The notes under the pieces were generated by a model, which was given only the letters and a program-made list of their open reading frames with translations, searched no databases and had not been told where the DNA came from. A program made the position numbers and the translations under genes. A stretch of DNA of 34,725 nucleotides, taken from IMG/VR virus record IMGVR_UViG_3300049791_000085, positions 1 to 34,725 of that record. One strand, written 5' to 3'. Below, piece after piece: positions 3,120 through 34,725 of the stretch (positions are counted from its first letter, which is position 1; every line of letters begins with the position of its first letter). The stretch is from a virus.

Positions 3120-3123
3120 TAAA

Positions 3124-4780: not shown

Positions 4781-4802
4781 AATTGAGGATTAAATTAAAA
4801 CC

Positions 4803-5027: not shown

Positions 5028-5036
5028 ATATTACTT

Positions 5037-19193: not shown

Positions 19194-20569
19194 AGTCCTT
19201 TCCCAGCTAATCCTATAGCGCTGCCGCCCGCTCCTTTGAGAAATATGCTATTAAGTGACTTTAACGCCTTTTCCTTTTCCAGGATTCCTTGGGAATGCTT
19301 TGCTACCTCAGGATGCTTAGCCAAAAACCTTTTCATGGGAACGGAGTTCTCATCAAATAAATTCTCAGGATTCTTTGGAACCTTGCGTAGCTCAGGATGA
19401 ACCAGCTTGCCAATCCCCTTTGGTAGATTCTTGTGATAATAAGTGTCCTTCAGTTCAGCAAACACTTTCTTTCCTTGTTTTAGTACATGCGCAATATCAG
19501 CATGGCCTTCCGTAATCAGGTGTTTTTCCAGGTCGTCATTAATCTTGTCTCGCAGATCCAGTATCTCTTCACCTTGATTCTCAAGCGCTAAATCTTGAGA
19601 TTCAGAACCTTTTGTTCCTTTCTTCCATAAATGGCTTTGTAGTTCATGAACAGCCTCATAATCTCCGCTTCGAGCAGCATCAATAAGCTTCCTGTTAGCT
19701 CGTGTCTTACCAAGAATTTCATGGGCTTGATTTATATAGTCTTCATTAACCGGTATCTTAATATCTCGCTTGCCAATAGCAGACCTTACCTGGCCATAAA
19801 GTTCATCAGCCGTATTCTGGAGCACGTCATGAGGCTTTTGTGCCGCAGCAACCAATGCCTCAGGCGTAGACTTACTTGTAAGTCCACGCATAAACTCAGG
19901 TAGCTTCTCTCCCGTTTTCTGACCAATCTTTCCTGCAAGTTTCCCAGCCCCACCTAAAGCAAGAGCTCCAGCGGCACCTAAAGCCCTGTCAGTTTTGTCA
20001 CCCGGAGTAGCAATCGCACCAGCACCACCAAGCGCTAATGGGGCCTGCAATGCCCCCGGAACACCCGCTAACGCCGCGCCACCTTTAAGCCCCTGCATAA
20101 TCTTACCAAACAATCCGCCTCCTCCAAGGAGCTCTGCGGCCATTTGAGCAGACTTTTGACCCGTACCATGGGCTTGCGGGAGAAGTCCTCGCAAATCAGG
20201 GCTATTAGCTAAATTCTGCGTGAATTCAGATGGAATTAATCCTGCTGCTCCTCGGATTGGAATTGAAGCTCCTTGTAAAGCCCCCCCGGCAATCGCAGGA
20301 ATGTAATCGGTGACATTGCTAACGCCACGAGCCGCTGATTCAAGCATAGGAGATTTTTGTGTTGGGGTAAGCTTCAATATGGCATCACGCAACCAGTCAG
20401 GCATGTTAGGGTGCTGTTTGGATATGCCTTGTTTGGCCATCTCCATGACATGGGACTGGTCTTCGGGAGAAAGGTCTTCAAAGTCAGGCATTGCAGAAGA
20501 TTTCGCTTTAGGTTGTTCATCAAGCAAATCTATGCCTTCCGCCCCATCATCCAATAAGTCTATGCCCAT
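19175..20569 (-). CDS. DNA ejection-type protein (464 aa)
   Basis: GGAG seven bases before an ATG that overlaps the upstream stop (TAATG) fixes the start. The protein has a duplicated acidic start (GIDLLDDGAEGIDLLDEQP), hydrophobic glycine/alanine-rich segments around residues 90-220 (AIAGGALQGASIPIRGAAGL, GGAALAGVPGALQAPLALGG) able to enter a membrane, then a helical, charged C-terminal half ending SAIGLAGKGLYDLFK. This composition and the place after the needle-like gene match the internal ejection proteins of P22-like phages (gp7, gp20, gp16), which leave the capsid with the DNA and help it cross the cell envelope. Which of the three it corresponds to is unclear. Confidence 0.65.
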   Translation of the reverse strand: MGIDLLDDGAEGIDLLDEQPKAKSSAMPDFEDLSPEDQSHVMEMAKQGISKQHPNMPDWLRDAILKLTPTQKSPMLESAARGVSNVTDYIPAIAGGALQGASIPIRGAAGLIPSEFTQNLANSPDLRGLLPQAHGTGQKSAQMAAELLGGGGLFGKIMQGLKGGAALAGVPGALQAPLALGGAGAIATPGDKTDRALGAAGALALGGAGKLAGKIGQKTGEKLPEFMRGLTSKSTPEALVAAAQKPHDVLQNTADELYGQVRSAIGKRDIKIPVNEDYINQAHEILGKTRANRKLIDAARSGDYEAVHELQSHLWKKGTKGSESQDLALENQGEEILDLRDKINDDLEKHLITEGHADIAHVLKQGKKVFAELKDTYYHKNLPKGIGKLVHPELRKVPKNPENLFDENSVPMKRFLAKHPEVAKHSQGILEKEKALKSLNSIFLKGAGGSAIGLAGKGLYDLFK

Positions 20570-21693
20570 TATTGCACTCCTTGTCTGGCTCTGGCATTCA
20601 GCTGGTCAATTACTTCTTCTTCGCTTATACCTCGTTTTTTAGCCGTAGCCTTAATGTTAGCAATCGTATAGTTTGGATTAATCTGAAGCAGCGCTGGTTC
20701 CATCTGCTTTAAGAAATCTTCAGTAGTGTTAGCGCTCAACTCCCGCTCAATCTTCTTTTCAGGCTTATTAGAGCCATCTTTAGGCGACGCATAGAAGTTT
20801 CCGGTCTTCTTATCAAAGTCTAGCTTCAAAGGCGAAGTCCCCGCATTTGCAAAGGTCTGAAGCTCTTGCTCTGTAATTTGCTTTAGCTGATTAAACTGCT
20901 GAAGCGCGACCTCAGGGTTTTTGGACCAATGACTCGGATTGGTAAGCTGGTCTATCTTGTCAGTAGCGGAAGGCTGAATAGAATCACCCCAGAACTGACG
21001 TAGTTGCTTGGATAGGGTCTTGGCACTCGTCAATGCTTTTTGATATTCCATAAATTCAGGAGGGGCGTTGCCTACACCTGCTTTTATAGAATCTACACCA
21101 TATTTAAAATTACCCTGAGGGCCTGAATATTGAACCAAAGCTTCTGGATTGATCGAATCCATGGTGATTTTAACGTTCTGAGCATAAGGAATTTTGTTGC
21201 GAATAGCGGCGTCCGTAGTCTTCTTGCCTAAGGCTTGATTAAACACCCGAGCCTCATCTTCAGGAAGAGGGCGACCTTGTTGTCCGGGCACTGATTGCTG
21301 TCCAAAACCTGGTCTACTTGATAAGCCTCCATTAAGAACGCCTTGGCCACGAGACGCCGCTATCAGCTTTTCCTCAGGAGTTGCTGCCCTATAAGGAGCT
21401 AAGCTGCTAAGGTTCTGGCGATAATCCATCAGAGACTGCCGACCAGAAAGCGCCATCTCATGCGCTCTCTTGGCTTCAATATAGCGCGGGTCTTGTTCTC
21501 CATATTGGTTTCTCATCATCTCAACATGCAATGCATTTGCTACATCCCCGGAAGGATGGGGCGTGTTCATGTATTCATGCTGCTGCGCAAGACGCTTACG
21601 CTCAAGCATATTCTTCATCAAGTTATCAGGAGCATGAAACCCTTTAAGAAAAGAATCAAACGCATCGCCCTGCGGTAACGGTATTCCTGCCAT
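20569..21693 (-). CDS. Putative ejection/internal virion protein (374 aa)
   Basis: GGAGG lies nine bases before ATG (MAGIPLPQGDAFDSFLKGFH). The protein is helical, rich in glutamine and charged residues (NMLERKRLAQQHEYMNTPHP), with a middle of GQQSVPGQQGRPLPEDEARV and a C-terminus AKKRGISEEEVIDQLNARAR. No membrane segment is evident. Its place between two glycine/alanine-rich putative ejection proteins, with overlapping stop/start junctions, suggests it is the second ejection protein. No similarity to a named family can be claimed by eye. Confidence 0.55.
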   Translation of the reverse strand: MAGIPLPQGDAFDSFLKGFHAPDNLMKNMLERKRLAQQHEYMNTPHPSGDVANALHVEMMRNQYGEQDPRYIEAKRAHEMALSGRQSLMDYRQNLSSLAPYRAATPEEKLIAASRGQGVLNGGLSSRPGFGQQSVPGQQGRPLPEDEARVFNQALGKKTTDAAIRNKIPYAQNVKITMDSINPEALVQYSGPQGNFKYGVDSIKAGVGNAPPEFMEYQKALTSAKTLSKQLRQFWGDSIQPSATDKIDQLTNPSHWSKNPEVALQQFNQLKQITEQELQTFANAGTSPLKLDFDKKTGNFYASPKDGSNKPEKKIERELSANTTEDFLKQMEPALLQINPNYTIANIKATAKKRGISEEEVIDQLNARARQGVQ

Positions 21694-21695
21694 GA

Positions 21696-22319
21696 TTAGC
21701 TACCTCCTGTAGACCACACACCACGGCCATAACCGCCTTTACCAAAACCACCAGTCAACCAGTCTGTAGCCAGACCTGTCGCAGCTCCGACGCCTTTGCC
21801 AAACATGTTAGCAGGCGCCTGATACTGTCCGAAAGCCATCTGGGCTGACCTGTCGCCCTGATTCATAGCGTTTTGAGACTGCTGACCAGCGGCTTGTGCT
21901 CCAGTTCCATACACACCCTGAGATATTCCAGCGCCGGCCATATATTTCTGCATCAAGTCATTAAGGTAATTCTGTCTATCTTGTGCCGCAATCCCGGTAG
22001 TGCCAGCTTGAATGGCATTGACAGCAGTATTGGAACCCATCAAGCCCATAGAGCTTGCTGCATCCAAGCCATGCTGTTGGGCAAGTCCCTCCATGTTTTT
22101 GGCAGCTTCCGACTCTTTGTAACCGGACGCCCACTTGTCCTGCAATGCCTGAGGGTCTTTCAAACTATTAATATAATCTTGCAAAGTTTGTTGCTGGCCT
22201 TGTCCAAACTGGTTATAAGGCTTCTGGTAATTCTGAGCCTGCTCATAATATTTATCATATTGTTTTTGAGCCTTCTTGTAGCCGCCACCCGGATTCATAA
22301 AATTCGATAACCAACTCAT
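21696..22319 (-). CDS. Ejection/DNA-transfer-like protein (207 aa)
   Basis: GGAG precedes ATG 22319. The protein starts MSWLSNFMNPGGGYKKAQKQ, then glutamine/tyrosine-rich helices (YEQAQNYQKPYNQFGQGQQQ), then an alanine/glycine-rich, weakly hydrophobic part (AVNAIQAGTTGIAAQDRQNY, GVGAATGLATDWLTGGFG) and a glycine tail. The layout, including the SWLSN.MNPGGGYKKAQ-type opening, occurs in many podovirus proteins annotated as DNA transfer or injection protein. Position right after the needle-like gene matches P22 gp14/gp7. Role is inferred from order and composition. Confidence 0.65.
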   Translation of the reverse strand: MSWLSNFMNPGGGYKKAQKQYDKYYEQAQNYQKPYNQFGQGQQQTLQDYINSLKDPQALQDKWASGYKESEAAKNMEGLAQQHGLDAASSMGLMGSNTAVNAIQAGTTGIAAQDRQNYLNDLMQKYMAGAGISQGVYGTGAQAAGQQSQNAMNQGDRSAQMAFGQYQAPANMFGKGVGAATGLATDWLTGGFGKGGYGRGVWSTGGS

Positions 22320-22335
22320 AGCATAATCTCCTTAT

Positions 22336-22791
22336 TCAAACTATTACAAATCCTGTGGTGCGCCCACTGAAAGTCACCCAGGTAGTATTTTCCTCGACGC
22401 AAACAATCTCAATGCAATCGTAACGACTCGATGATGCCACGCTAACCGCTGCTGAAGCGCCTGTATCCGCATCCTTGATAGTCTGGCCAGATCCTACCAG
22501 AATAATCCAGCCTCCAGCCCCAAATCCTGCGATAGTGACACGATTACCTACTGACGCTGTATCTGGTAGCTGAAAGGTAGTTAACGCAACGTTGGTGGGT
22601 ATATAGGACGAATTAATCTCAACGGCCTGCGTAATATCAGTGACCGTAGTCTGGGAAAGAATAGCACCCTGAATATCATTCAAATCCTCATTCAAGGTAT
22701 CAACCAGAACCCATATCCATTGTAGTAATTGCATATCGAAGTCTGAGTTGATAATGGGGGCCGAATCAATTCTGTCCAGAAATAAGGTCAT
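22336..22791 (-). CDS. Tail-needle-like protein (151 aa)
   Basis: In P22-like genomes the gene after gp10 encodes the tail needle gp26, and this protein fills that slot. It starts MTLFLDRIDSAPIINSDFDM, with helix QLLQWIWVLVDTLNEDLNDI (residues 21-40) that could trimerise, then a C-terminal beta module (about 60-151: TTFQLPDTASVGNRVTIAGF, GAGGWIILVGSGQTIK, ENTTWVTFSG). It is much shorter than P22 gp26 (233 residues), so most of the coiled-coil shaft would be missing. The same C-terminal module ends two fibre proteins of this phage. SD GGAGG lies inside the preceding coding end (TAATG junction). The needle identity is inferred. Confidence 0.55.
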   Translation of the reverse strand: MTLFLDRIDSAPIINSDFDMQLLQWIWVLVDTLNEDLNDIQGAILSQTTVTDITQAVEINSSYIPTNVALTTFQLPDTASVGNRVTIAGFGAGGWIILVGSGQTIKDADTGASAAVSVASSSRYDCIEIVCVEENTTWVTFSGRTTGFVIV

Positions 22792-24608
22792 TAGTTTCCA
22801 CCTCCGCTGACACGTGAAGTGTTTCTAACGCCACCCAATATAACAATAGGGGCTGAACTCACGCATACAAGCCTGTAGCAACGATTTCGACTGCAACCCA
22901 GCTCATACCAGCGCATACGCCATCGGTAAGCGCCTAGCGGACTAAATTCTCGCACATCGGCATAGAGGAAAGTTTCGCCGCCGTCATCACTATAATAAAG
23001 CTCAATGTGAGGTTTAAAAAGAGCGCAATAATGATTGTCGTCAAAAGTGGGTGTGTTTGTGCCTTCCTGAATGAGGAATTTATCATCTTCCGAAAGCATG
23101 AAAACAGGAACATCTGGCGTACTTTCTTCGCCAACAATGAAAACCGTATTGAGAAACGGCGTGCAGTTCGCGTAAAACGTCTTAGTTCCAAAAACAAAGT
23201 CAATTTCGACATAATCTTCCTTGAATTCCGCATAATCTGGTAAAAATATTTGCTGTGTAACAAGCTCATAACGCATGGGATACTTTAAAAATGCATCCGT
23301 GGCCTGATGATTAAGTTGCGCAGGATTTATAGTTTCATTATGATAAATATTACCAGCCATTTGATAGAGTGCCGGATCCTTCTGCACGGTAACCAAATGG
23401 GCATTATTAAAATATACATGCTTTTCTATTCTATTTCGCTCGCCATTGAGTTCGATTAGCCTGCCCCATTTTTTGGTCTCGAAGTTAAACTCGATGGAAT
23501 TGGCGTCATCATTTATATCCAAATCCCCAAAGTCTACATATTCACCAGCGGCAGCCCTGTAAAATATAGTATTCTCATATTGATACAAAAATCCTTCAAC
23601 TTTATTACCAAGCCACGGGCTAATCCTGTCAGCGTGCGTTGAATCTTCCAGGAGAACATTAATAGCTTGAGAGGATATATCCTGAGGCGCCTGACCGTTA
23701 GACATCATGAAAGAAACAAGGCCATTACTGTTTTTAGCAAGCCATACCATCATGCCAAAGTCAACAGAAAGGCTATTAGGATCTGAAATGCCAAAATCAA
23801 AGTTATAGGAAGTGTTTAGTTTCCATGGGAATTCACGTGTAACGCCTGCAACAGTAAGTTGCGTTATGATGTTTGCCCATACGTCAGTGCTAAAGTCACA
23901 CATGATGTAGAGTTGATTATGCAGCACTGCAAATTGCCCAATAACCCCGGTTGCTCTGGCATTCAGGGCAGCACCTGGGCTTCCGATTGTAAAATATGTG
24001 CTAGCTGAACCAGATAAATTTGATGTAGACAAATAAAAGTCAGGTGTATCAGCAACACTAACAACAAACCTGTTACCAAATGAGGCCACATATAAAGGCT
24101 TGCCACCAGTTGTGGATCCTCCTGGAGCATTGCCATCAGTAACCAATTCGGCGCTTACAGTTCCTGCGTTCTCCGTGATTACATAAATATTCGTCCTGTC
24201 GGTAAACATGTTCTTTATCGTCGTGCCCACCGCAAGCGTTGCAAACCATATAGGTTGACCTAGTGCCGTACTAATTGGGACGCCAAGCGATGTATTTAAA
24301 GTATGACGATTATAATTGCGGTCAAAATAATAGACAGATGTACCGTCAAATACATACAAATAGTTTATAGACTTATAGATTGCACGAGGCTCATCATTAA
24401 AAATCAAAATATTTTGATCCTGAAAACTAACATGCTGACGACCCATGGAAGGGTAGAGCGCTTGTGGTTTCTTACCAGACTCACACTGAATACCATACCA
24501 GTTAGCGCAGTCCATGGCGCCAAATTGCTTGAACCGTTGCTGATCGTAATAGCAGAATATCGGCAGCTCTTCTATCTTGTCCCCAAACTCATTCTTTGAC
24601 ATTGCCAT
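22791..24608 (-). CDS. P22 gp10-like tail accessory protein
   Basis: ATG 24608 overlaps the upstream stop (TGATG) and is preferred to the GTG further up at 24632. The 605-aa protein fits the gp10 family of P22-like phages (packaged-DNA stabilisation protein, tail hub): N-terminal DCANWYGIQCESGKKPQALY, beta-propeller-type repeats (YLYVFDGTSVYYFDRNYNR and similar), and the family C-terminus HIELYYSDDGGETFLYADVR, then FSPLGAYRWRMRWYELGCSR. gp10 is the second factor that closes the portal channel after packaging and carries the tail. It is longer than P22 gp10 (472 aa). Order with the gp4-like gene upstream agrees. Confidence 0.8.
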   Translation of the reverse strand: MAMSKNEFGDKIEELPIFCYYDQQRFKQFGAMDCANWYGIQCESGKKPQALYPSMGRQHVSFQDQNILIFNDEPRAIYKSINYLYVFDGTSVYYFDRNYNRHTLNTSLGVPISTALGQPIWFATLAVGTTIKNMFTDRTNIYVITENAGTVSAELVTDGNAPGGSTTGGKPLYVASFGNRFVVSVADTPDFYLSTSNLSGSASTYFTIGSPGAALNARATGVIGQFAVLHNQLYIMCDFSTDVWANIITQLTVAGVTREFPWKLNTSYNFDFGISDPNSLSVDFGMMVWLAKNSNGLVSFMMSNGQAPQDISSQAINVLLEDSTHADRISPWLGNKVEGFLYQYENTIFYRAAAGEYVDFGDLDINDDANSIEFNFETKKWGRLIELNGERNRIEKHVYFNNAHLVTVQKDPALYQMAGNIYHNETINPAQLNHQATDAFLKYPMRYELVTQQIFLPDYAEFKEDYVEIDFVFGTKTFYANCTPFLNTVFIVGEESTPDVPVFMLSEDDKFLIQEGTNTPTFDDNHYCALFKPHIELYYSDDGGETFLYADVREFSPLGAYRWRMRWYELGCSRNRCYRLVCVSSAPIVILGGVRNTSRVSGGGN

Positions 24609-25549
24609 CAAATGCCTGCCCGGACGCGCCACGCCCCGTTCAGAAGTGACTGCTCATCGCCAGCAATAGATAAATTAACCTCTGACGCGGCCTCCATGTC
24701 ATCTTTTAATTCCCTGTACTCCATCTCCAGATCCGGAGTCCATACAGAACCTCTACCTTTGAATTTGGAGACATATTTAGCAACCGCATATAAGAAATAC
24801 AACTCAAAATATAAAGGCAGCCCCTCCAGCGAATCATTGGATGTCATAATAGATTTTTGAAACTTGCCTCGCGCAAAGAAATCAAAGAACTGGCTTGGAG
24901 CAGGATAGAGCTGCGCCCGAACAAAGGTTGTTTCCGGGAAAGTAATAATAAAGCGAGGCAAGCCCTGCAAAGGCTCATATTTCCACGCAGCCAGGAACTC
25001 ATCGCGACTCTTTATAATCAGAGGGTAGGTTACGCCGCTTAACTGTAGCCATGCATTATCAAGGTTTGCAAGCCTGCCTTGCTTGATATAAACCACATTT
25101 GGCAGACTGCTGTCGTGCGTGAAATACACAGCCGACGAACCGCTTATCGTAGCATTCGCAGTCATCGTAATAAGATTACCAAGAATTGACTGGATAGTGG
25201 TTGCCGCAGGAATTCCTGCACCGGTTACCAAATCTCCCACAAAATATAATGAGCTATTAACTACGGTAAATGATGAAGAAAGTGCCGTGAGTGTCACAAT
25301 TTCTTTTATAGTTGTAGTGGTTGAATAATCAACATCTGTGAAATATATTTCATTTTTTGGAACGTTAATGGAATCAGTTACTGTTTGGGCTATAGTCAGC
25401 ATCAATCCTGAGCTGGCATAGTTACTTAAAATCTGATTCATCACCCGTATGGCAAGCTTCTCATCGTCACCATGCAAGGGAACGGTCGGATTACTCGCAT
25501 TGATTAAGCGATACATCTGATAAATAAATTCCCTTACGGTAGATGCCAT
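24608..25549 (-). CDS. P22 gp4-like tail accessory protein with inserted domain
   Basis: The N-terminal 80 residues (MASTVREFIYQMYRLINASN, then GDDEKLAIRVMNQILSNYAS) and the C-terminal part (PLYFELYFLYAVAKYVSKFK) match the gp4 family, the first protein that binds the portal after packaging. P22 gp4 has 166 residues; this one has 313. The extra length includes residues about 81-145, a valine/threonine-rich beta segment (FVGDLVTGAGIPAATTIQSI) resembling repeats in fibre-like proteins, inserted in the gp4 fold. The gp10 gene follows with overlapping codons. gp4 of P22 also has muramidase activity; no catalytic residues can be confirmed here. Confidence 0.7.
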   Translation of the reverse strand: MASTVREFIYQMYRLINASNPTVPLHGDDEKLAIRVMNQILSNYASSGLMLTIAQTVTDSINVPKNEIYFTDVDYSTTTTIKEIVTLTALSSSFTVVNSSLYFVGDLVTGAGIPAATTIQSILGNLITMTANATISGSSAVYFTHDSSLPNVVYIKQGRLANLDNAWLQLSGVTYPLIIKSRDEFLAAWKYEPLQGLPRFIITFPETTFVRAQLYPAPSQFFDFFARGKFQKSIMTSNDSLEGLPLYFELYFLYAVAKYVSKFKGRGSVWTPDLEMEYRELKDDMEAASEVNLSIAGDEQSLLNGAWRVRAGI

Positions 25550-25827
25550 TATTTTCTCGCTTTAGGTAGAAAATCTTCGTCTTTCTTTTTGCCGGAAATC
25601 TTGTCTTTTTTCATAGCCTCTCGCTCAACCTTAATATCGGGAGCGATGGAAACTACACAGGCCTTCGCATCTTCTTTAGATGCAAACCACGTGCCAGATT
25701 CCATATGTGATTCGAATTCTTCCCATGATTCAACAATCTTTTGTGAACCATTTGGAGCATAAATGTTTGTTCTGAAACCTTCTTTAGGCACAATTCTACC
25801 CAGATACATTGCTGGAATTCCATCCAT
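25549..25827 (-). CDS. Small hypothetical virion-cluster protein (92 aa)
   Basis: AAGGAG lies six bases before ATG 25827 (MDGIPAMYLGRIVPKEGFRT). The preceding ATG (25830) and the longer frame to 25938 lack spacing or a site. The protein is a compact, mixed fold with a charged C-terminal tail (MKKDKISGKKKDEDFLPKAR). It lies just downstream of the coat terminator and before the gp4-like gene (TAATG), where P22-like phages may have a small head-completion or unknown gene. Function is unknown. Confidence 0.6.
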   Translation of the reverse strand: MDGIPAMYLGRIVPKEGFRTNIYAPNGSQKIVESWEEFESHMESGTWFASKEDAKACVVSIAPDIKVEREAMKKDKISGKKKDEDFLPKARK

Positions 25828-25840
25828 CATAGACTCCTTA

Positions 25841-25872
25841 AAAACAGGTCGGCAACAATTGGTCGCCGACCT
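25841..25872 (-). terminator. Strong terminator directly after the coat gene
   Basis: On the minus strand AGGTCGGC (25872-25865) pairs perfectly with GCCGACCT (25853-25846) and is followed by G and TTTTT (opposite 25841-25845). It lies eight bases after the coat stop. The run of T and the GC-rich stem make it a clear intrinsic terminator. Confidence 0.85.
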
Positions 25873-25879
25873 AATCAAC

Positions 25880-27118
25880 TTATGAGCAAATACGTACAGC
25901 AAACTCAGGATTGATTGCAACTCCGCATATAACGTCAATACGGTCTAACTGTTCGTAGTTACGGATATCAGCACCAAGAGAATAAGTCATTGCTAACTTA
26001 TACAGGTCCGAATATCTGGTAACTGCTTCAACCCCACCACGCAATTCCTTGATAGGAGGAGCTGCAAACACAATGGCTTGCGTATGATAGGCAATGGAGA
26101 CATTATGGTCGTCGCGAAGTAACATTTGTGCGCCGTTTGGAATGGCAGCACTAATGTTCTGTCGGGCACCAGAAGTTACGATAGTTGGGTTAACTGGAAT
26201 GGTTGCAGTACCACCACCACTTGCGATAACCGTATCAGTAACTACAAACTGCGCACGCTGCTCAAGCGCGTCATATGTCAATGGATTGACCATGAATACG
26301 CCATCCGCATCAGAAACTTCGATAATATCACCAATGTTAAACGCAACTACAGAAGGCACAAGACCTGTTACAATAATGGAATTTCCGTCTGTAATCGGTC
26401 CGTTTGTGACAATACCTGCAAGCTTAAATCCGGCAGGAGGCGAACCACCAGCTTCACCAGCACCAGCTATTTGCCTTGACAGGAAGTTGGTCTTGAAGAA
26501 GTCAAATCCACTTAAATGACCCACAAAGCCGTCTATCAAAGCGCCTGTATTAACTGTGTCATTGAAAGTATTAAACAAGTCATTAGACAAGTTAGCCGCT
26601 ATACGTGGACCAACACCTGCATAGCGTTTGCCATCTTCAGGTATTGCAAGCTCAGTCATATAGGCATCAGCGGTCAAGATTGTATTGAAGTCTACAGGAA
26701 CACCAGGTGTACCAACTGCTTGATAAGTTTGGGTCTGGAATTCAGAAGCAATAAACTTCTCAACAAGGTTAGCCAATCGTTTAGCCCGTGGAGCATTAGC
26801 CATCTCTAAATATGGTTCATCACGCGCACGATCGAATGTCAGATTAAAACCCGTGTATTCAATCATTGTGCGGAATTGCTTGGTAATACTTAAAGGACGG
26901 ATAATCTGTACGCGTGCTTCAGCAGTAGCTGATGCGCCTTCGCCTGCCAGGTATCGCTCTTCCAAACGATAATCAATGGTTTGACCGGTTGCGAATTTTA
27001 AGTTCTTGAAATCAGCTTCAAGATTACGGTTAGCGGTTCTTGCAAAAGATAATGAGTTCCAAAAGCGTACGAATACGTCGTCAAGGACGTACTGAGTTTC
27101 TCTAAAGACGTTAGACAT
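25880..27118 (-). CDS. Major capsid (coat) protein, P22-like
   Basis: GGAG precedes ATG 27118 (MSNVFRETQYVLDDVFVRFW). The longer frame to 27184 adds a hydrophobic run with no ribosome site. The 412 residues, the position between scaffold and tail genes, and the general layout (N-terminal helices, the E-loop-type stretch KFATGQTIDYRLEERYLAGE, then a long beta-rich domain) fit the HK97-fold coat of the P22 class (gp5, 430 aa). The region GEAGGSPPAGFKLAGIVTNG near the middle could be the inserted I-domain of that class. It has its own promoter and terminator. Fold and identity are inferred from order, length and sequence character, not a search. Confidence 0.8.
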   Translation of the reverse strand: MSNVFRETQYVLDDVFVRFWNSLSFARTANRNLEADFKNLKFATGQTIDYRLEERYLAGEGASATAEARVQIIRPLSITKQFRTMIEYTGFNLTFDRARDEPYLEMANAPRAKRLANLVEKFIASEFQTQTYQAVGTPGVPVDFNTILTADAYMTELAIPEDGKRYAGVGPRIAANLSNDLFNTFNDTVNTGALIDGFVGHLSGFDFFKTNFLSRQIAGAGEAGGSPPAGFKLAGIVTNGPITDGNSIIVTGLVPSVVAFNIGDIIEVSDADGVFMVNPLTYDALEQRAQFVVTDTVIASGGGTATIPVNPTIVTSGARQNISAAIPNGAQMLLRDDHNVSIAYHTQAIVFAAPPIKELRGGVEAVTRYSDLYKLAMTYSLGADIRNYEQLDRIDVICGVAINPEFAVRICS

Positions 27119-27252
27119 TTCTGTTCTCCATGAACAAATTAATAATAAATGCATTCGCAGGATTGCGAGTGCGCTCACTTTCATTTGCTCGACGGAAGCA
27201 GTATTTACGCGTCTTTATTGTGGGTGATGGGATCCCTTACTCATCAATTTCA

Positions 27253-27281
27253 ATCATAGTTTGGCTTGCAATAATTGTCAA
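27253..27281 (-). promoter_or_regulatory. Strong promoter for the coat gene, inside an inverted repeat
   Basis: Reading leftward: TTGACA (27281-27276), 17 bases, TATGAT (27258-27253), about 135 bases before the coat ATG. A dyad ATAGTTTG/CAAACTAT (27256-27263 with 27279-27286) spans the -10 to -35 region and could be an operator or a hairpin in a longer transcript. It is one of the best sigma70-type promoters in the window. Confidence 0.7.
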
Positions 27282-27289
27282 ACTATAGT

Positions 27290-27343
27290 AAAAGGCTTTG
27301 TGCCTAGCTTGCTGTCAGCGGCGAAAAGGTGTCTTATCACACC
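27290..27343 (-). terminator. Weak tandem terminators after the scaffold gene
   Basis: On the minus strand GGTGT-gataag-ACACC is followed by TTTT (27343-27324), and 19 bases further AGGC-acaaa-GCCT is followed by TTTT (27305-27290). Both stems are short (4-5 pairs). They may reduce read-through of the portal-scaffold transcript before the coat promoter takes over. Confidence 0.4.
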
Positions 27344-27356
27344 ACGGCACACTAAA

Positions 27357-28259
27357 TTATCTTCTGCCACTCGGTCTACCTTTCATTCTTTGCAACTTCC
27401 TTGCATCCGATTTAGCTATCAAGTCTTCAATCGTACTTTCTGCCTTCTTCTTAGATACTGGTGATTGTGCGTCTTCATTGGTTCTTCCTAAAGGACGAGG
27501 TGCTTTCGTTGTTGGTTTATTGCGTCTCATACGCTCTTCAAGCTTTCCCATTTCAGTCATCTGGGCGTAAGGGTCTCGTAGTTTGGATATGCGCTCAAGT
27601 TCTTGAGGATTGCGTTTGGCAGCAGCGTAGAGGAAGGCTGCCGGGTCGCTCATTGCCCGTGTTGCAAGCGTCATAGGATTTGTGATTTCACATGGAAGGG
27701 CGCGAATTACATCCTGAAAGTCACTGAAGTTAGCCATTCCTGTTATTAATTTTGATTCAAACTCTTGCTGCACCTCATGCTCTTGCTGTCGATTTCGCGC
27801 CTCATCCTGCTCTCGACCCATCGAGTTTACAGTTTGCTTCACAAAACTTGCTAATTGCTGTTGCCAATCACCAGCCGCATCCGGGTTGTACTCGAAGTCG
27901 CCTGCTGCCTGCTGAATCTGTTGGCTTGCGCCTCGCTCAGCTAATTGTGCGCGAAGAGAATCAATCTCGGCCTGATGCTTGCGGTTCATGCTCTCTGCTT
28001 GTTTCTTAAGCCTGTCGCGGATAACTTCGTTTTCAGGTTCTTTCTCGTTTCCATACTCGTCTGTATCACGCAAAGGCTTCGTTTCTACTTCCTGGCTATC
28101 TTCTTGTGCCTCTGGCTCATGCTCCTCGCTTTCAGGCGCCTCTTCTGGCTCAAGCTCTTCAATTTCCTCGGGCTCGTCGCTGTACTGGTGCTCAGGAGTC
28201 TGTGGCTGCGATGCATTGCCGCCACTTAATAATAGTTCATCAATGCTGCTTGTGCTCAT
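27357..28259 (-). CDS. Scaffold protein (P22 gp8-like)
   Basis: At 300 residues it almost equals P22 gp8 (303). It starts MSTSSIDELLLSGGNASQPQ, has a very acidic N-terminal third (DEPEEIEELEPEEAPESEEH), long helical middle (KQAESMNRKHQAEIDSLRAQ), and a basic C-terminal end (ARKLQRMKGRPSGRR) where gp8 has its coat-binding helix-turn-helix. Gene order portal-scaffold-coat is the expected one. Scaffold assembles the procapsid and leaves before DNA entry. Assignment rests on order, size and charge layout, and is secure as a type. Confidence 0.8.
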   Translation of the reverse strand: MSTSSIDELLLSGGNASQPQTPEHQYSDEPEEIEELEPEEAPESEEHEPEAQEDSQEVETKPLRDTDEYGNEKEPENEVIRDRLKKQAESMNRKHQAEIDSLRAQLAERGASQQIQQAAGDFEYNPDAAGDWQQQLASFVKQTVNSMGREQDEARNRQQEHEVQQEFESKLITGMANFSDFQDVIRALPCEITNPMTLATRAMSDPAAFLYAAAKRNPQELERISKLRDPYAQMTEMGKLEERMRRNKPTTKAPRPLGRTNEDAQSPVSKKKAESTIEDLIAKSDARKLQRMKGRPSGRR

Positions 28260-28282
28260 TCCTTTACCTCTCCATCTTTAGC

Positions 28283-30634
28283 TTATTGAATCTTGTGCGT
28301 TAAAATCTTAACCAGGTTATTGGCGTGCGATATGGATGCATCGCTTTCTGTTCTTTGAGTCTCTGCCAGATACCGCATTTTCCCTTCTTCTATTTCTCCC
28401 ATTACTGAAATCTCTTCGGCCTGTAATTTCTGATGCTCAATTTCAAGCTCGACCTGCATTTGCTGGGCCTTAAGAGCCAATTCTTGTTTCTTAATCTCAA
28501 GGGTTTGCATCTTGAATTGCTCTTCCATTTGCATTTGTTGAGCCTGCATTTGCATTTGTTGTTCTTCAGGAGAGGGGCCTTGTTGTTGCGGCATCTTGCC
28601 AGTCTTTCCAGCTTCGATGATTTCACGAGGCACGCGAGTTTTAAGCCTGTTCTTAATCTCAATGGTGTTAGCCAGAGGCAGGTTATCAGCGTAAAGATCG
28701 GCGATAAGGTTAAAGGATGTTGGATCTGCTTGCAGGACTTCACGCAAGGATTGGAGCGCCTCTTGTTTCTGACCTTCGAAGCTTGGTCCCGGTTTAAGTC
28801 TTACTTCATATGTTCCTTTACGTATATCGTTATGCACTTGCTCCCCATATTCGTCGGCTTGCTTGTTCACAGTTATGTTCTTCATGCCTTCATCTGGCGT
28901 CATCAGGGCAAGTACGCGCTCCGTATCGTAGACGCGCGGAATCATTTCGTTAACGATTGCTCCACCTGTTGCAATAGCTCTGTTAATTGAATTAAAGAAG
29001 ACATAGGTTGTGTAACTTCCTTGACGGGTTCTTGCATCAATTGCTTTACCACTTGCCTCATCTCCATTGTTTCCCATTCGAGCTGGATATAAGCCAGTAG
29101 AAGTATACAAGTCCTCAATTGCCAGCTGGTATTGCTGAAAGAGCGATGCTGATAGCTCAGGTGGCCTGACCTGCTCAGGCTTGATTCCGGAAGGTGATTC
29201 ATCATAAGCCAGCATTCCTTGTGTATTATTAGGGTCACGCCAGTTTCTTTGGGTATCAAGACTTGCAACATTCTTCTTGCTACCTATCCATTGATCGTAT
29301 CTGGATATCTTAAGGATATAGGCAGATTGGGTTCTAAGATAATTAATATAGCGCTGCGTGTCCTTGGCATCCCCAAAGAAAGAGCGGCATATCTGCTTGC
29401 CAGTTTTATCATAGAAACTATTGTTATCAACGAAGACCAAAGGCAACTGCTCGGACGGAAATTCCGTCTTGTCCAGTTCATAGTCTCCTGCAAACTTATA
29501 ATGCCAAATCTTATGCTTCTTAGCAGGGCGCTCATCTTCTATCCTGACCATTTCCCCGTCTTGCCATAAGGTCATAAGGCTTTGGTCTTCGCTAAACTCC
29601 ATATCTACTTCAGCGACTTGAGGACCGTTAGCAACATCCATGCCATTTTGTTGCGGGAGAATATCCTGATTACCCCCCATGCCAAATCCATTGCTGCCTT
29701 CTGGTGATGGCATTTGGCCTTCCATGGTTGGCTGCCCAGGTATCTGCACTTCTGGAGAACCTTGTGGCATACCCTGAGGCTGCCCCATGAGCATTTGTTC
29801 AAGCTCCATCATGCGGTTTTTTTCGTTTATTTCCCGAGACGACTCAACGAGCTCGTCCATTTCTTCCTGATTCAGGATATTTCCATTAGATAGTTTATAG
29901 AGCGTATCTTTCTCAAATTTACGGACAAAATGATCTATAATCGTTATGGCTTCGCTGTCTGACCAACTGAATGGATCTTCAGTTTCGTTTGGCTCGACAG
30001 CGAGAGCCACCTCTTCCTCGGTTGCAGCAATACCGCCTTTTCCTATCTTCTCTTCAATATCGCGGCCATACAGGTCACGGAACTTGGCTCGGGACATGCG
30101 TGAAACATAACCACAAATTGTTCCATCAGTTTTATTAACGCTTTCTGCACCGACATCCCAATAGCATCGCGTTGCATCCTTAAAGTGATGATAGGTTATG
30201 TCAAGGTCAAAAGACTTGGCATGCGAATAGTCGGTTGCCACACAAAAGGCTCCAAAGCCACCAATGGCAGCCTGACCCGCTGCAACTTGATAGACGGTCG
30301 CTGTATTGTTGCTAAACATAATATCTTTTATTATGAGCTCTCGAAGGTGCGCTACCTCCTCATCACAGTTAGTCATGGGCACTACTTGCAACTGAGGGGT
30401 ATTTTGCTGCTGTTCACCCAAGAGCGAATTGGACATGGTAGCAAGCTTATTGGATGACAAAGGAACCTTGCGGAAGGTCTTAATCATGTCGTCTTCTTCA
30501 TCATCAGTCCACTGTTGACCCAAGACAAAGGTGTGCATTTCATGATACTGGTCAATGTTAAACTTAAAGTACCCGCGCCATTTCTCACACGCTATACGGG
30601 CTTTCTTTGCCATCTTTTCATTGTGTCTAGCCAT
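28283..30634 (-). CDS. Portal protein, P22 gp1 type
   Basis: The 783-residue protein has the P22-portal-type body (WRGYFKFNIDQYHEMHTFVL near the start, later MFSNNTATVYQVAAGQAAIG and RCYWDVGAESVNKTDG). P22 gp1 has 725 residues. An inserted proline/glycine/methionine/glutamine-rich stretch (about 285-335) forms an extra loop. The C-terminal about 110 residues are glutamine/methionine-rich and helical (QQMQMQAQQMQMEEQFKMQT), as expected for the barrel coiled coil of P22 portal that reaches into the capsid. It would form a twelve-subunit ring at the DNA entry vertex and hold the terminase and the gp4-like tail factor. AAGGATT lies before the ATG. Confidence 0.85.
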   Translation of the reverse strand: MARHNEKMAKKARIACEKWRGYFKFNIDQYHEMHTFVLGQQWTDDEEDDMIKTFRKVPLSSNKLATMSNSLLGEQQQNTPQLQVVPMTNCDEEVAHLRELIIKDIMFSNNTATVYQVAAGQAAIGGFGAFCVATDYSHAKSFDLDITYHHFKDATRCYWDVGAESVNKTDGTICGYVSRMSRAKFRDLYGRDIEEKIGKGGIAATEEEVALAVEPNETEDPFSWSDSEAITIIDHFVRKFEKDTLYKLSNGNILNQEEMDELVESSREINEKNRMMELEQMLMGQPQGMPQGSPEVQIPGQPTMEGQMPSPEGSNGFGMGGNQDILPQQNGMDVANGPQVAEVDMEFSEDQSLMTLWQDGEMVRIEDERPAKKHKIWHYKFAGDYELDKTEFPSEQLPLVFVDNNSFYDKTGKQICRSFFGDAKDTQRYINYLRTQSAYILKISRYDQWIGSKKNVASLDTQRNWRDPNNTQGMLAYDESPSGIKPEQVRPPELSASLFQQYQLAIEDLYTSTGLYPARMGNNGDEASGKAIDARTRQGSYTTYVFFNSINRAIATGGAIVNEMIPRVYDTERVLALMTPDEGMKNITVNKQADEYGEQVHNDIRKGTYEVRLKPGPSFEGQKQEALQSLREVLQADPTSFNLIADLYADNLPLANTIEIKNRLKTRVPREIIEAGKTGKMPQQQGPSPEEQQMQMQAQQMQMEEQFKMQTLEIKKQELALKAQQMQVELEIEHQKLQAEEISVMGEIEEGKMRYLAETQRTESDASISHANNLVKILTHKIQ

Positions 30635-30677
30635 GTTGCAATCCTTTGTTATTAGTTTTGTATGTACAATCCGTGCT

Positions 30678-32201
30678 CTAAATTAGTCTACCAGCCATTC
30701 TATCTGGTAATCGGTTCACAACATAACCACCTTCCTGAACGTATTCGCCACCATAAAAGGTAAGCATCAATGCGTCAGATGTATCTGGTGAAAGTAGCCC
30801 ACGCTTCTTGGCATCTTCCTTGCTTTCTATTTGTAACCTGTCGCTGGAGTCGTATTTATAACCAAGCCCCGTTAAATCTGTTTGTAGCTCATCACTATCT
30901 GGTATCTCTACCGGCATTTCTTGTGTTAACCAGTCTCGCATCCAGTCCCATAGCTCGGCGCGCAGGTTTTTGTACTTATCAGGCTCTGAAGCTTTGCGTG
31001 CCACATTTACGCCCTCTACAACATCAGTGTAACCTAACTCATGCAATCTATCGACAACGCCTGCTCCAATTCCTATTGAGTCAATGCATACTCTTTTTGG
31101 ATTTTCTTTCTCTATCATGCGCTTAATGATGCCAGCTAGCTCCATTGTGTCAATGTTATAATGCGTCTCAAGGCCGAAAGCGCGCCTCCCCATGCGACGA
31201 ATTATTGCCGTTCGGTCATCACCTTTTCTTGCCGGATCAATGCCTATCACAAGACTTGTTTGACTGTCAACCTTGGTCACTCGCGCTTTCTTAATATGAT
31301 CGACAATGATAAATGTATCGGTTATAGAGGAGAGAAATGCCTCGTCATCAGTGAAAGGATATTCTTGCCTGAACTTACGACACTTCTGTTCGTAGTCACC
31401 CTTGAAGTCCTGAAGCTTTATGCGCCTCCAGTTCAAGTGACCAAGCTTAAGCCCATTGTCTTTAAATTGTTCGAGCCATTCTTTTTCATCTTCTTGCGGC
31501 ACAAACATCGCATCTTCTATGCAGTATTCATCCTGCCAATACCACGGCACAAATATTGCTTGATAGCGGGACTTGCCATTCTTTGCTTCCTGCCAATCCT
31601 GATAGAAATCATTATCTATGCCGTTTGCCGTCGATTCCTTTATGACTTCTGTGTCTGCCATCTCCGCTACGGTCTGAAGCAATCCGAGGCTGATTCTAGC
31701 GGCATCTTTGTAGAAGGCGTACTCTGACAAGTGAAGATATTGATTGGTCATGGAGCGGCCTATTTCAGCGCTACCGGCAGTCCCTACCCGATATCCTGAG
31801 CCAAGTCCGTTGTACATTAAGGTGTTATCATTCTTTTTGTCTGGCTGAGGGAACAATCCTGCTTCAAGGTTCTCCGAGTACCTCTTTGTCATCTCAAATA
31901 TGGCGCGTGTTGCATCAGACAAATGAGTAAGAATGAAGGCTTTCTTGCCTTTCTTAGTGACAATCTTGTGAAAGTATCGTGCTTGAACGTAGGTTGAGAC
32001 GCCTTGTTGACGCCCTTTGAGTATTAAGGCTCGTATCTTGCCTGTTGCCAGATACTGGGCTTCGAGACGCTCATGGATGTATTGCTGGGCTCGATTGAAC
32101 TCGAAGTTTCGTTCGGCACCGGATTTGTCATGGATTACTAGGAAGTTTTTAGCGAAGAGAGGAAGGGACTTTAAGACACGTATTAACTTGTCCTCTGACA
32201 T
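30678..32201 (-). CDS. Terminase large subunit
   Basis: The 507-aa packaging motor/nuclease shows a Walker A variant GRQQGVST (63-70), a Walker B-type QYLHLSEYAF with E160 as the catalytic carboxylate, and the C-terminal RNase H-like nuclease with IGIDPARKGDD (D322 first metal residue), CIDSIGIGAG and SPDTSDALML as the later acidic motifs. Such a domain makes it a headful-type large subunit, as in P22 (gp2). It cuts concatemers and drives DNA into the capsid using ATP. Small terminase precedes and portal follows, the classical order. Confidence 0.92.
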   Translation of the reverse strand: MSEDKLIRVLKSLPLFAKNFLVIHDKSGAERNFEFNRAQQYIHERLEAQYLATGKIRALILKGRQQGVSTYVQARYFHKIVTKKGKKAFILTHLSDATRAIFEMTKRYSENLEAGLFPQPDKKNDNTLMYNGLGSGYRVGTAGSAEIGRSMTNQYLHLSEYAFYKDAARISLGLLQTVAEMADTEVIKESTANGIDNDFYQDWQEAKNGKSRYQAIFVPWYWQDEYCIEDAMFVPQEDEKEWLEQFKDNGLKLGHLNWRRIKLQDFKGDYEQKCRKFRQEYPFTDDEAFLSSITDTFIIVDHIKKARVTKVDSQTSLVIGIDPARKGDDRTAIIRRMGRRAFGLETHYNIDTMELAGIIKRMIEKENPKRVCIDSIGIGAGVVDRLHELGYTDVVEGVNVARKASEPDKYKNLRAELWDWMRDWLTQEMPVEIPDSDELQTDLTGLGYKYDSSDRLQIESKEDAKKRGLLSPDTSDALMLTFYGGEYVQEGGYVVNRLPDRMAGRLI

Positions 32202-32214
32202 TTAGGAACATCCT

Positions 32215-32574
32215 TCATTCAACAAGCCTATCAAGCAATTTCTCGACAATAGTGTCATTAACTGATTTAGGTTCTTTGTCTTCCTGATAGTCAGCTCGGA
32301 AACGGTTTTTCATTGAAAATATCCATGGAGCGGAGGAAAACTTTTCGTAATTACCGACAATGCCGTTTTCGCCCATGTCTTCCCAGTATGCTTGACATGC
32401 TTGCATGCCTTGGTCTAAAGCAACCTTGAATTCAGGGTGGGCGTCTCTCCAGTCATATAATGACTGACGAGAAACGCTTAATGCAGCACAAACGGCAGCT
32501 AAACTCTTCCCTTTAGAGAGGATTTCGGCTGCCGTATCACAAAATTCAGGCCTGTATTTGTTAGGAATACCCAT
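32215..32574 (-). CDS. Terminase small subunit
   Basis: The 119-aa protein has a helix-turn-helix N-terminus (AAEILSKGKSLAAVCAALSV, SRQSLYDWRD) typical of small terminase/Terminase_5-type DNA recognition, and a C-terminal charged helix (VNDTIVEKLLDRLVE). It lies immediately before the large subunit and would recognise the packaging start site and stimulate the motor. ATG has GGAAT upstream. Role assigned by position and HTH. Confidence 0.8.
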   Translation of the reverse strand: MGIPNKYRPEFCDTAAEILSKGKSLAAVCAALSVSRQSLYDWRDAHPEFKVALDQGMQACQAYWEDMGENGIVGNYEKFSSAPWIFSMKNRFRADYQEDKEPKSVNDTIVEKLLDRLVE

Positions 32575-32596
32575 GGTAATTCCTTATAGTGTAAAA

Positions 32597-32788
32597 CTAT
32601 GGACCAGCTTGTTCATTACGTTTTTCACCACGCATTTCACCGCCAGCTTCGCCGGGCTCGCAATATTTAGGCTGCATCTTATTTTGCTGCTCAACACGAC
32701 GACCATATTCAGATGATACGCCATTATAATGGGTATTTCCCTCAGCGCCATCTTCAGAAGTGTAATCTTTCACGCCTGTATTGCTCAT
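32597..32788 (-). CDS. Small hypothetical protein (63 aa) at the head of the late operon
   Basis: GGAG precedes ATG 32788 by nine bases. The protein MSNTGVKDYTSEDGAEGNTH is polar, with acidic and glycine-rich patches and a C-terminus GGEMRGEKRNEQAGP, and looks disordered. No family recognised. It is the first gene of the leftward late block, whose promoter would lie in the 231-base gap to its right (only a weak TTGTGG-N17-TATCGT candidate seen). Confidence 0.6.
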   Translation of the reverse strand: MSNTGVKDYTSEDGAEGNTHYNGVSSEYGRRVEQQNKMQPKYCEPGEAGGEMRGEKRNEQAGP

Positions 32789-32837
32789 TGTAATTACTCC
32801 GTTAATTAATTATTTATAACGATAGCACATAAATTAC

Positions 32838-32846
32838 TTATCCACA
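32838..32846 (+). promoter_or_regulatory. Perfect DnaA-box consensus
   Basis: TTATCCACA, the consensus DnaA-binding box, stands alone in an AT-rich 231-base gap between divergent operons. A single box is no proof of an origin, but it may mark host DnaA binding. No second box was noticed near it. Confidence 0.45.
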
Positions 32847-32911
32847 AAATCTGTTGGTAACCCAGTGCATAAAACCATAAAACCATATATATAGCAACGG
32901 TTAAGTATCAG

Positions 32912-32942
32912 AAAATATATTAGCCCATTACGAATATATTTT
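32912..32942. repeat. AT-rich inverted repeat in the late/early divergent gap
   Basis: AAAATATAT (32912-32920) pairs with ATATATTTT (32934-32942) around a 13-base loop. It lies just upstream of the 33 kb early promoter. Without GC pairs it is probably an easily melted or protein-binding site rather than a terminator. Confidence 0.45.
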
Positions 32943-32950
32943 TATCATTC

Positions 32951-32991
32951 ACATAACAAGTGTTGACATACATAACAAGTGTTGCTATAGT
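32951..32991 (+). promoter_or_regulatory. Strong early promoter with a duplicated AACAAGTGTT operator
   Basis: TTGACA (32963-32968), 17 bases, TATAGT (32986-32991) is a near-consensus sigma70 promoter. The 15-mer ACATAACAAGTGTTG occurs twice, at 32951-32965 and 32970-32984, 19 bases apart. One copy overlaps the -35 box, the other fills the spacer. Each holds AACA-AG-TGTT, a small dyad with a 2-base centre. The element before the recombination operon (1948-1955) shares ACAAGTGTTGAC in the same register to its -35 box. Confidence 0.75.
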
Positions 32992-33019
32992 TTAGATGTC
33001 AAAACAAAAGGAGCTAAAA

Positions 33020-33277
33020 ATGAAAACAATAAACGATATAACAATGTACGACCTGATGTCCGATGACTTGACTGTCTGGATAAAAAGAAATGAAAAGTTT
33101 GGTTTTGATTTGGAAATAGAAAATTACGGCGGGGAAGTGCTGGTAGACGAGAAGGGCATCAACCCATTAGCCATGGAAAGCTACGCCGACATGTGTAGAC
33201 GCTTCGTCCACTTTTACGACAAATTGAAAGCTATAACAGAGAAAGAGGTTAACGATAGCATAGGAGGTGAGGCATGA
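33020..33277 (+). CDS. Hypothetical early protein (85 aa)
   Basis: AGGAG lies five to six bases before ATG 33020, so the eight-codon longer frame from 32996 is not used. The protein starts MKTINDITMYDLMSDDLTVW, is acidic and mixed alpha/beta (FGFDLEIENYGGEVLVDEKG), and ends EKEVNDSIGGEA. No known domain. It is expressed first from the strong early promoter, so a host-takeover or anti-host function is plausible without direct evidence. Confidence 0.65.
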   Translation: MKTINDITMYDLMSDDLTVWIKRNEKFGFDLEIENYGGEVLVDEKGINPLAMESYADMCRRFVHFYDKLKAITEKEVNDSIGGEA

Positions 33278-33489
33278 GTGTGAGCGAAGACTACGGCAAT
33301 TATACAATAGACGTTTATGAGTCAAGCTACATTGATATGCAAGGAATGAATTGCGAAGGATGGACTTACAGGATGCAAAACAAAAACTCGGGATATCTTT
33401 ATGAGCTTAATGACTGGCATGATTCTCCAATAAAAGCATTGGATGCCGCAAAACAAAAAATTAGAATCTTAAACAATGGGAGCAAATAA
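33274..33489 (+). CDS. Hypothetical early protein (71 aa)
   Basis: It is coupled to the previous gene by ATGA and has AGGAGGTGAGGC before the start. The protein MSVSEDYGNYTIDVYESSYI has a strand-rich first half (GWTYRMQNKNSGYLYELNDW) and a helical end (PIKALDAAKQKIRILNNGSK). Small, soluble, no recognisable family. It resembles other short phage proteins with one beta sheet and one helix, but that is a fold impression only. Confidence 0.65.
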   Translation: MSVSEDYGNYTIDVYESSYIDMQGMNCEGWTYRMQNKNSGYLYELNDWHDSPIKALDAAKQKIRILNNGSK

Positions 33490-33490
33490 C

Positions 33491-33625
33491 ATGATTAAGA
33501 AACTTAAATGCTTACTAAAAGGCCACCAGTTCATAATGAACTACCAGGATACTTACCGCTGCTTCAGGCCGATTTCAAATCCACAATGCACACATTGCAG
33601 GAAATCTAAAATATCTTGTCGCTAA
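33491..33625 (+). CDS. Small cysteine-containing protein (44 aa), perhaps DUF1660-like
   Basis: GGGAG precedes ATG 33491. It encodes [20 protein letters not shown], then [20 protein letters not shown] and ISCR. The start [12 protein letters not shown]24 and the paired cysteines CTHC resemble the small zinc-binding phage proteins of the DUF1660 group. It ends inside the convergent cold-shock gene by 20 bases. A real gene is supported by the binding site and by coupling to the operon, but the family label is tentative. Confidence 0.5.
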
Positions 33626-33818
33626 CAAGTTGTACTTTAGTAGCAATCGCGCCCTTGGGTGACTGGCCTGCTTCAAAGCTAACCTTGTCACCTTCGTTAA
33701 GGCTCTTAAAGCCTTCACGCTGTATCTCACGAAAATGAATAAAATAATCTTTACCACCTGACTCCAGAAACCCAAAACCTTTCTGGTCATTAAACCATTT
33801 GACTTTTCCCTCTTGCAT
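33606..33818 (-). CDS. Cold-shock domain protein (CspA family)
   Basis: The 70-residue protein [20 protein letters not shown] is a complete cold-shock domain with RNP1 (KGFGFLE), RNP2-like DYFIHF and the usual EGDKVSF strand. It binds single-stranded RNA or DNA as an RNA chaperone. AAAGGATGGG lies before the ATG. In RNP2 the family's common VFVH is DYFIH here, a conservative change. It is carried on the minus strand with the two genes to its right and may help translate phage mRNA or lift host stress blocks. Confidence 0.9.
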
Positions 33819-33916
33819 ATCTAGCCCATCCTTTATCTTAAAATCGAATTCTACCCACTAAATTTGCTCATAGCAACGATATCTCTAAAAATCTATGTCA
33901 TGGTAGCGGGTTATCA

Positions 33917-34141
33917 CTAATTCCACTCATATCGCTCTGTAGAGCCTTTGGCGTAATCCGGCATCCCGGCATCAACCCAAACCTTAACCCCTGTCTCCAG
34001 AGTGGCTGTGTCAATCAGACCATTAACCATATCGTGTTTGTCCTCAGTGCTCAATAGCCTCGTACTGATAAGTGCTGGTGATACACCTAAGCGCATCCCG
34101 ATTCTAAACAGCTTGCTCTTGCATTCTTGTGGTGTTGGCAT
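33917..34141 (-). CDS. Hypothetical protein (74 aa)
   Basis: It starts MPTPQECKSKLFRIGMRLGV and ends AKGSTERYEWN. It is helical, with LGVSPALISTRLLSTEDKHD resembling a helix-turn-helix or a short repeat. It overlaps the 3' end of the gene upstream by 38 bases. No function recognised. It could be a small regulator of the leftward operon. Confidence 0.6.
   Translation of the reverse strand: MPTPQECKSKLFRIGMRLGVSPALISTRLLSTEDKHDMVNGLIDTATLETGVKVWVDAGMPDYAKGSTERYEWN

Positions 34142-34612: not shown

Positions 34613-34725
<113 letters not shown>

Follow-up and report, generated by a model that had tools for sequence, protein, structure and literature searches.

A conserved tandem-pseudoknot leader RNA in the coat transcription unit of uncultured P22-related phages

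In tailed phages, the amount and timing of coat protein relative to scaffold and portal are understood in few systems. The window analysed here, a stretch of viral DNA of 34,725 nucleotides, raises the question of how a coat gene is set apart from its neighbours and what the RNA in front of it contributes. The initial annotation took the gene for an insulated transcription unit with an ordinary leader. The coat unit as an observation is confirmed and that interpretation is partly supported; the leader RNA emerges as the important object, and a switching mechanism for it is moderately supported.

The coat transcription unit

The major head protein encoded in the window is of the P22 type, as it matches phrog_283 and shares 26-28% identity with annotated P22 coat proteins. 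Its start was placed at 27118, and the longer ORF start at 27184 was not taken. The features of the locus are collected in Table 1. Elsewhere in the window, a recombination/replication block occupies 2454-6743 (+), encoding a Sak4-like annealing protein, a Cas4-domain exonuclease and a DNA helicase.

Table 1. Features at the coat locus of the window (positions are those of the window)
Feature	Position	Strand	Description and basis
Intrinsic terminator after coat	25840..25873	-	12-bp stem 25873-25845, -20.2 kcal/mol, z -6.0, then TTTTT
Major head (coat) protein gene	25880..27118	-	phrog_283, E 2.3e-37; relatives annotated as P22 coat protein
Shine-Dalgarno GGAG (27129-27126), loop and edge of hairpin GTTC/GAAC	27123..27135	-	sequence
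Alternative helix (candidate)	27132..27190	-	fold; own-versus-foreign co-evolution; switch prediction
Pseudoknot 2 (PK2)	27186..27213	-	S1 GACG/CGTC, loop CGTAAATAC, S2 TGCTT/GAGCA; descriptor, covariation, R1 covariance model
Pseudoknot 1 (PK1)	27222..27246	-	S1 TGATG/CATCA, loop AGTAA, S2 GGG/CCC; descriptor, covariation, R1 covariance model
8-bp inverted repeat spanning the coat promoter	27245..27289		ATAGTTTG/CAAACTAT; sequence
Sigma70-type promoter	27253..27281	-	TTGACA-N17-TATGAT; 11/12 consensus; -35/-10 kept in relatives, in register with PK1
Weak hairpin with TTT	27290..27305	-	AGGC-ACAAA-GCCT; sequence; surrounding fold z -0.6
Weak hairpin with TTTT	27324..27343	-	GGTGT-GATAAG-ACACC; sequence; surrounding fold z -1.8
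Scaffolding protein gene	27357..28259	-	phrog_8865 head scaffolding protein, E 1.5e-13

For comparison, 80 IMG/VR loci with 81-92% coat identity (the close relatives), a further 77 or so at greater distance and loci found by pattern were taken together; without the control phages and a single locus that bears an intron, they yield 143 distinct coat leaders. The promoter proposed for the coat gene is present in the window, and its consensus matches are the joint best within 20000-34725. Because promoter-like sites as a class stay at chance level (25 found, 26.8 +/- 5.9 in shuffles), the evidence for this promoter is comparative. The TTGACA box is perfect in 49 of 75 close leaders, distant relatives keep a CATAAT-like -10 box, and the first pair of a pseudoknot in the leader (PK1, described below) lies 5-6 nt past the -10 box in 74 of 111 leaders. 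From this register the RNA should start at the pseudoknot; in the window, PK1 begins at the first transcribed base predicted from the promoter position (about 27247-27246, minus strand).

The dyad reported around the promoter does exist, with arms of 8 bp, but it is not conserved: arms of at least 8 bp occur in only 8 of 111 relatives. The dyad is for this reason probably incidental, and it was rejected as an operator. Eleven leaders (L002, L005, L009, L015, L030, L041, L060, L107, L110, L118 and L145) have paired ACCGAATTCGG palindromes immediately ahead of the -35 box, where other relatives carry long inverted repeats of unrelated sequence. A second promoter, TTGACA-N17-TATAGT, also matches the consensus at 11 of 12 positions and carries TG ahead of its -10 box; located at 32963-32991 (+) of the window, directly before rightward ORFs at 32996, it is likely an early promoter.

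The distance from scaffold stop to coat start ranges from 149 to 2591 nt in the relatives and reaches 5747 nt in one of them (L007); the shortest gap has the length of promoter plus leader. This gap looks like an insertion hot spot, with inserted sequence in many relatives, and L181 has two tRNA genes there (2386-2533). Members of the int-alpA RNA family (RF02996) are encoded shortly before the coat promoter, on the other strand, at L040:4562-4629 and L203:2715-2782 (minus strand). In L202, a Group I catalytic intron (2741-2954; Rfam RF00028, E 5e-20) is found just upstream of the coat-coding match and apparently interrupts the 5' end of the coat gene.

At the other end of the unit, a hairpin with a stem of at least 8 bp follows the coat stop in 82% of relatives, compared with 10% of shuffles. 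Its position is conserved, and a U-tract (at least five T in eight) accompanies it in a minority, 38 of 138. The window terminator is as strong as had been described, although it begins about 6 nt past the stop and not eight. Hairpins are also present where weak terminators had been placed upstream of the promoter, but their stems of 4-5 bp fall under the threshold of the terminator scan and the surrounding folds are unremarkable. Since terminator-like sites occur after coat in only 33% of relatives (4% in shuffles) and upstream of the promoter in only 13% (2% in shuffles), read-through in both directions is likely.

The notion of an insulated unit thus holds for separateness and fails for complete insulation. 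These comparisons give good support to a transcription unit of its own for coat, because the promoter is conserved and keeps a fixed register to the leader, a hairpin after coat is common, and the gap between scaffold and coat often holds inserted sequence. As to the early expression that had been suggested for coat, no evidence supports it.

Tandem pseudoknots in the coat leader

From promoter to start codon, the coat leader of about 128 nt is a conserved structured RNA composed of two tandem H-type pseudoknots, both of the pattern S1 - HGUA - (0-12 nt) - S2 - NYC - S1' - (0-1 nt) - S2'. The stretch that had been read as an ordinary leader is, by this comparison, the conserved part of the locus, and it is probably regulatory. 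It could still be argued that promoter and terminators are the whole story, given that promoter and terminator are real and conserved in position. We consider this very improbable, as it does not account for 128 nt of covarying RNA, which is still present in relatives whose coat identity is as low as about 67%.

The structure was searched for with a descriptor in which GUA and the two stems are obligatory. Two non-overlapping pseudoknots were found in 111 of the 143 distinct leaders, leaving 32 without them by this descriptor, and in 0 of 1430 dinucleotide shuffles, a type of statistic that is inflated by relatedness among the leaders. When the S1 strand is replaced by a foreign one, the strict fold is restored in 2-3% of cases, compared with 75-80% with the own strand; a first version of this swap, anchored on MAFFT and with wobble pairs allowed, had given a weak result, and the strict version was used. 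Since the descriptor fixes GUA, a separate alignment of 87 close leaders was made without it as a check. GTA is kept there in 83 leaders for PK1 and in 86 for PK2, and the top covarying column pairs against a tree-based null are the S1 pairs of PK1 (E 0.013) and PK2 (E 0.025). Covariation is strong in both stems: in alignment A1 (58 descriptor-chosen leaders, MAFFT, no structure used in aligning), the score is 0.465, whereas sliding the partners yields 0.118 at most and none of 500 shuffles attains the observed value, with the same inflation by relatedness. The 5' leader therefore holds a conserved, covarying, aptamer-like domain of the kind by which a regulated leader is recognised. By eye, the leaders of L168 and L196 have three tandem pseudoknots; in L196 the GUA signature seems lost while pairing is kept.

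Inverted repeats can be protein sites in DNA as well, and the window promoter itself carries one. However, the stem sequences vary freely while their pairing is kept, with 58 different S2 strands in PK1, and the fold does not arise in the shuffles. DNA-level operators or chance repeats in place of RNA structure are strongly disfavoured by this pattern, and we give them next to no credence.

Three pattern scans, blind to the coat gene, were carried out over 2.9 million viral contigs. All distinct matches of the PK1 pattern (33/33) and of the GGCG form of PK2 (32/32) lie directly before a coat gene; the matches of the GACG form that have no coat gene are either contig ends or chance occurrences, most of which fall within coding sequence. 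Of 137 tandems in the 4.7 Mb of fetched loci (a redundant set, scanned on both strands), 133 are at coat, the remainder comprising one coat leader cut by a contig end and three that look like chance. The R1 covariance model has a single significant site in the window (27247-27185, E 2e-13) and one significant match each in 19 of 20 related records. It finds no other bearers among 277 genomes searched as relatives of the single bacterial assembly in which such a phage is present.

No family of Rfam 15 matches the leader element at gathering or permissive thresholds, blastn against deposited phages yields no match, and no description of a tandem pseudoknot before a phage coat gene was found in the full text of open-licence papers. 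By the tests available here, the leader RNA is a new structured RNA family. Such a leader is absent in the cultured or deposited relatives VvAW1, 41E34.2, CV-1-33 and ctfPj964 (26-28% coat identity), where coat closely follows the upstream gene. Its absence in these phages suggests that the leader arose within the present clade of uncultured P22-related phages.

Pairing around the Shine-Dalgarno sequence

The hairpin GTTC/GAAC that carries the Shine-Dalgarno sequence (SD) pairs in 63% of cases with its own strand and in 23% when strands are swapped. A predicted alternative helix that encloses this hairpin joins GAGCAAAT, made up of the PK2 S2' strand with the bases that follow, to ATTTGTTC, which immediately precedes the SD. 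The energy models ignore pseudoknots, and the folded state of PK2 was mimicked by holding PK2 out of the pairing. In such pseudoknot-free folding, the probability that the SD is unpaired is 0.20 for the free leader, 0.55 with PK2 masked, 0.195 with PK1 masked and 0.49 with PK2 shuffled (p 5e-16). For the window leader, masking of PK2 raises it from 0.07 to 0.75.

Whether own strands pair better than foreign ones was assessed by duplex-energy swaps, since scoring the P3 extension by complementarity alone failed to separate own (80%) from swapped (50%) strands. The PK2 3' half has a duplex energy of -8.9 with its own tail and -7.1 with foreign tails (p 1.5e-14), a preference that is absent for PK1 and for the PK2 5' half. 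At the level of sequence comparison, then, the PK2 3' half co-evolves with the strand before the SD. An own-specific signal is absent (p 0.7) for L2-S1', the PK2 segment whose predicted partner is the SD, and weak (p 0.004) for the S2' strand taken by itself, so that PK2 and the alternative helix may not exclude each other fully; a short S2 and the A/U part of that helix could coexist.

We propose, as a moderately probable reading of these data, that coat is made from its own promoter as a short mRNA, and that the tandem-pseudoknot leader is a translational switch which is ON when PK2 is folded. A host-sigma70-type promoter would produce a short coat transcript that opens with the first base pair of the tandem-pseudoknot RNA. 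Each pseudoknot is formed by an S1 hairpin whose loop pairs with the bases directly 3' (S2), with the conserved HGUA and C on the loop side of S1. PK2 may compete with the pairing between its own 3' strand and the pre-SD strand, by which the SD would be drawn into a helix. The ribosome site would accordingly be open, and coat made, while PK2 is folded, and closed while PK2 is open. PK1 would cap the 5' end, with a probable further role in supporting PK2 or as the other half of a binding site, and the hairpin after coat would cut, or protect, the 3' end, so that coat is made in excess over its neighbours. Candidate triggers are coat or scaffold protein, a small molecule, an ion, or no more than the folding of the RNA as it is transcribed. 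The restriction of the element to sites before coat makes an assembly-pathway protein plausible. Structure, covariation, promoter register, coat-only location and the co-evolution of the PK2 3' half with the pre-SD strand come directly from the comparison, and from them we infer, with moderate confidence, a switch that works in cells, its direction and its trigger.

With a protein as trigger, this switch would be an autogenous translational operator in which the pseudoknots are bound by coat or scaffold protein, so that translation of coat is repressed (or permitted) and supply is matched to assembly. The strict tie of the element to the coat gene alone agrees with such control, as does the tandem repetition, reminiscent of dimer-binding sites, of a small conserved signature in the loops, and phages offer precedents in the T4 gene 32 leader pseudoknot, the MS2 coat operator and P22 scaffold autoregulation. 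However, the window coat and scaffold match head-protein families only, and we know of no RNA binding by P22-type coat, so that an autogenous operator seems possible but doubtful. A new riboswitch-like class may be entertained tentatively, in which tandem pseudoknot receptors sense a ligand (assembly protein, metabolite or ion) and switch translation of the capsid gene. If this is true, the shell protein would be made only when assembly or host state allows.

The main rival to a translational switch is a role of the tandem pseudoknots in shielding the 5' end. They would block 5'-end-dependent decay (RppH/RNase E, or RNase J where present), the 3' hairpin would protect the other end, the coat mRNA would be long-lived, and the overlap with the SD would be incidental. 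The fixed register between promoter and PK1 leaves no room for an unpaired 5' tail, the pseudoknots come in two to three tandem copies, and the hairpin after coat is conserved mostly without a U-tract, all of which is consistent with protection. Yet the co-evolution of the PK2 3' half with the pre-SD strand is then left unexplained, as are the conserved loop bases HGUA and C, since a plain 5' stem would do. We regard shielding as a rather unlikely explanation of the leader, although it could act alongside the switch.

Cis antitermination would use the same RNA at a different step, with the nascent leader binding RNA polymerase, like put RNA of phage HK022, so as to pass the hairpin after coat and read the tail genes. 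Indeed, a structural-gene transcript begins with this leader, whose structured elements are in tandem, and a hairpin lies directly past the first gene. But the element lies close to where translation starts and changes in concert with the SD strand, most hairpins after coat have no U-tract and would not need antitermination, and no second copy is found elsewhere in the searched genomes; we consider this mechanism improbable.

Whichever role the leader plays, a large clade of uncultured P22-related short-tailed phages carries a strictly coat-linked, covarying RNA that has a fixed promoter register and no counterpart in Rfam 15. At about 130 nt, it offers a compact target for studies of capsid dosage control, mRNA protection and RNA switching, for which neither phage nor host is needed.

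Likeness to known systems

The leader of T4 gene 32 contains one 5' pseudoknot, a translational operator that binds the single-strand DNA-binding protein. The coat leader is likewise a phage mRNA leader with a pseudoknot at its 5' end, for which control of translation is proposed here, and it has two pseudoknots in place of the one in T4. The H-type pseudoknot aptamers, such as preQ1-I and SAM-II, are compact, their folding is linked to SD access, and some classes occur in tandem copies. Unlike the classical H-type aptamers with their longer L3, the coat leader has an L3 of 0-1 nt and would control a capsid gene; the riboswitch models of Rfam have no match to it.

We know of no tandem pseudoknots in the leader of T7 gene 10. 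As a transcription unit, this gene has the promoter phi10 before the capsid gene and one leaky terminator, Tphi, directly after it (PMC5592923). The coat unit described here is built in the same way, with a promoter directly before coat, whose hexamers and register are conserved, and a terminator directly after, a 12-bp stem and T5 in the window. The two differ in that the T7 promoter is of the phage RNA polymerase type, whereas the coat promoter is of the sigma70 type.

In dianthovirus xrRNA, a hairpin and a pseudoknot, supported by covariation, are placed so as to face a 5'-3' nuclease (PMC6299227). The coat leader shares with it the combination of hairpin and pseudoknot with covariation, whereas the xrRNA has a P1/P2 ring and belongs to another genome type.

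The STAXI motif (Rfam RF01728) is a pseudoknot in two to three tandem copies, located near SSB, topoisomerase, antirestriction and integrase genes of Enterobacteriales and often carrying UUCG tetraloops (PMC2864571). Its model has no match in the window at E <= 10 and none in the other loci. Unlike STAXI, the coat leader element was found by pattern only before phage coat genes, and UUCG appears in a pseudoknot loop in 2 of 111 coat leaders. Both are nevertheless tandem pseudoknots in two to three copies, the third copy of the coat leader being seen by eye, and STAXI is the nearest described architecture to the coat leader.
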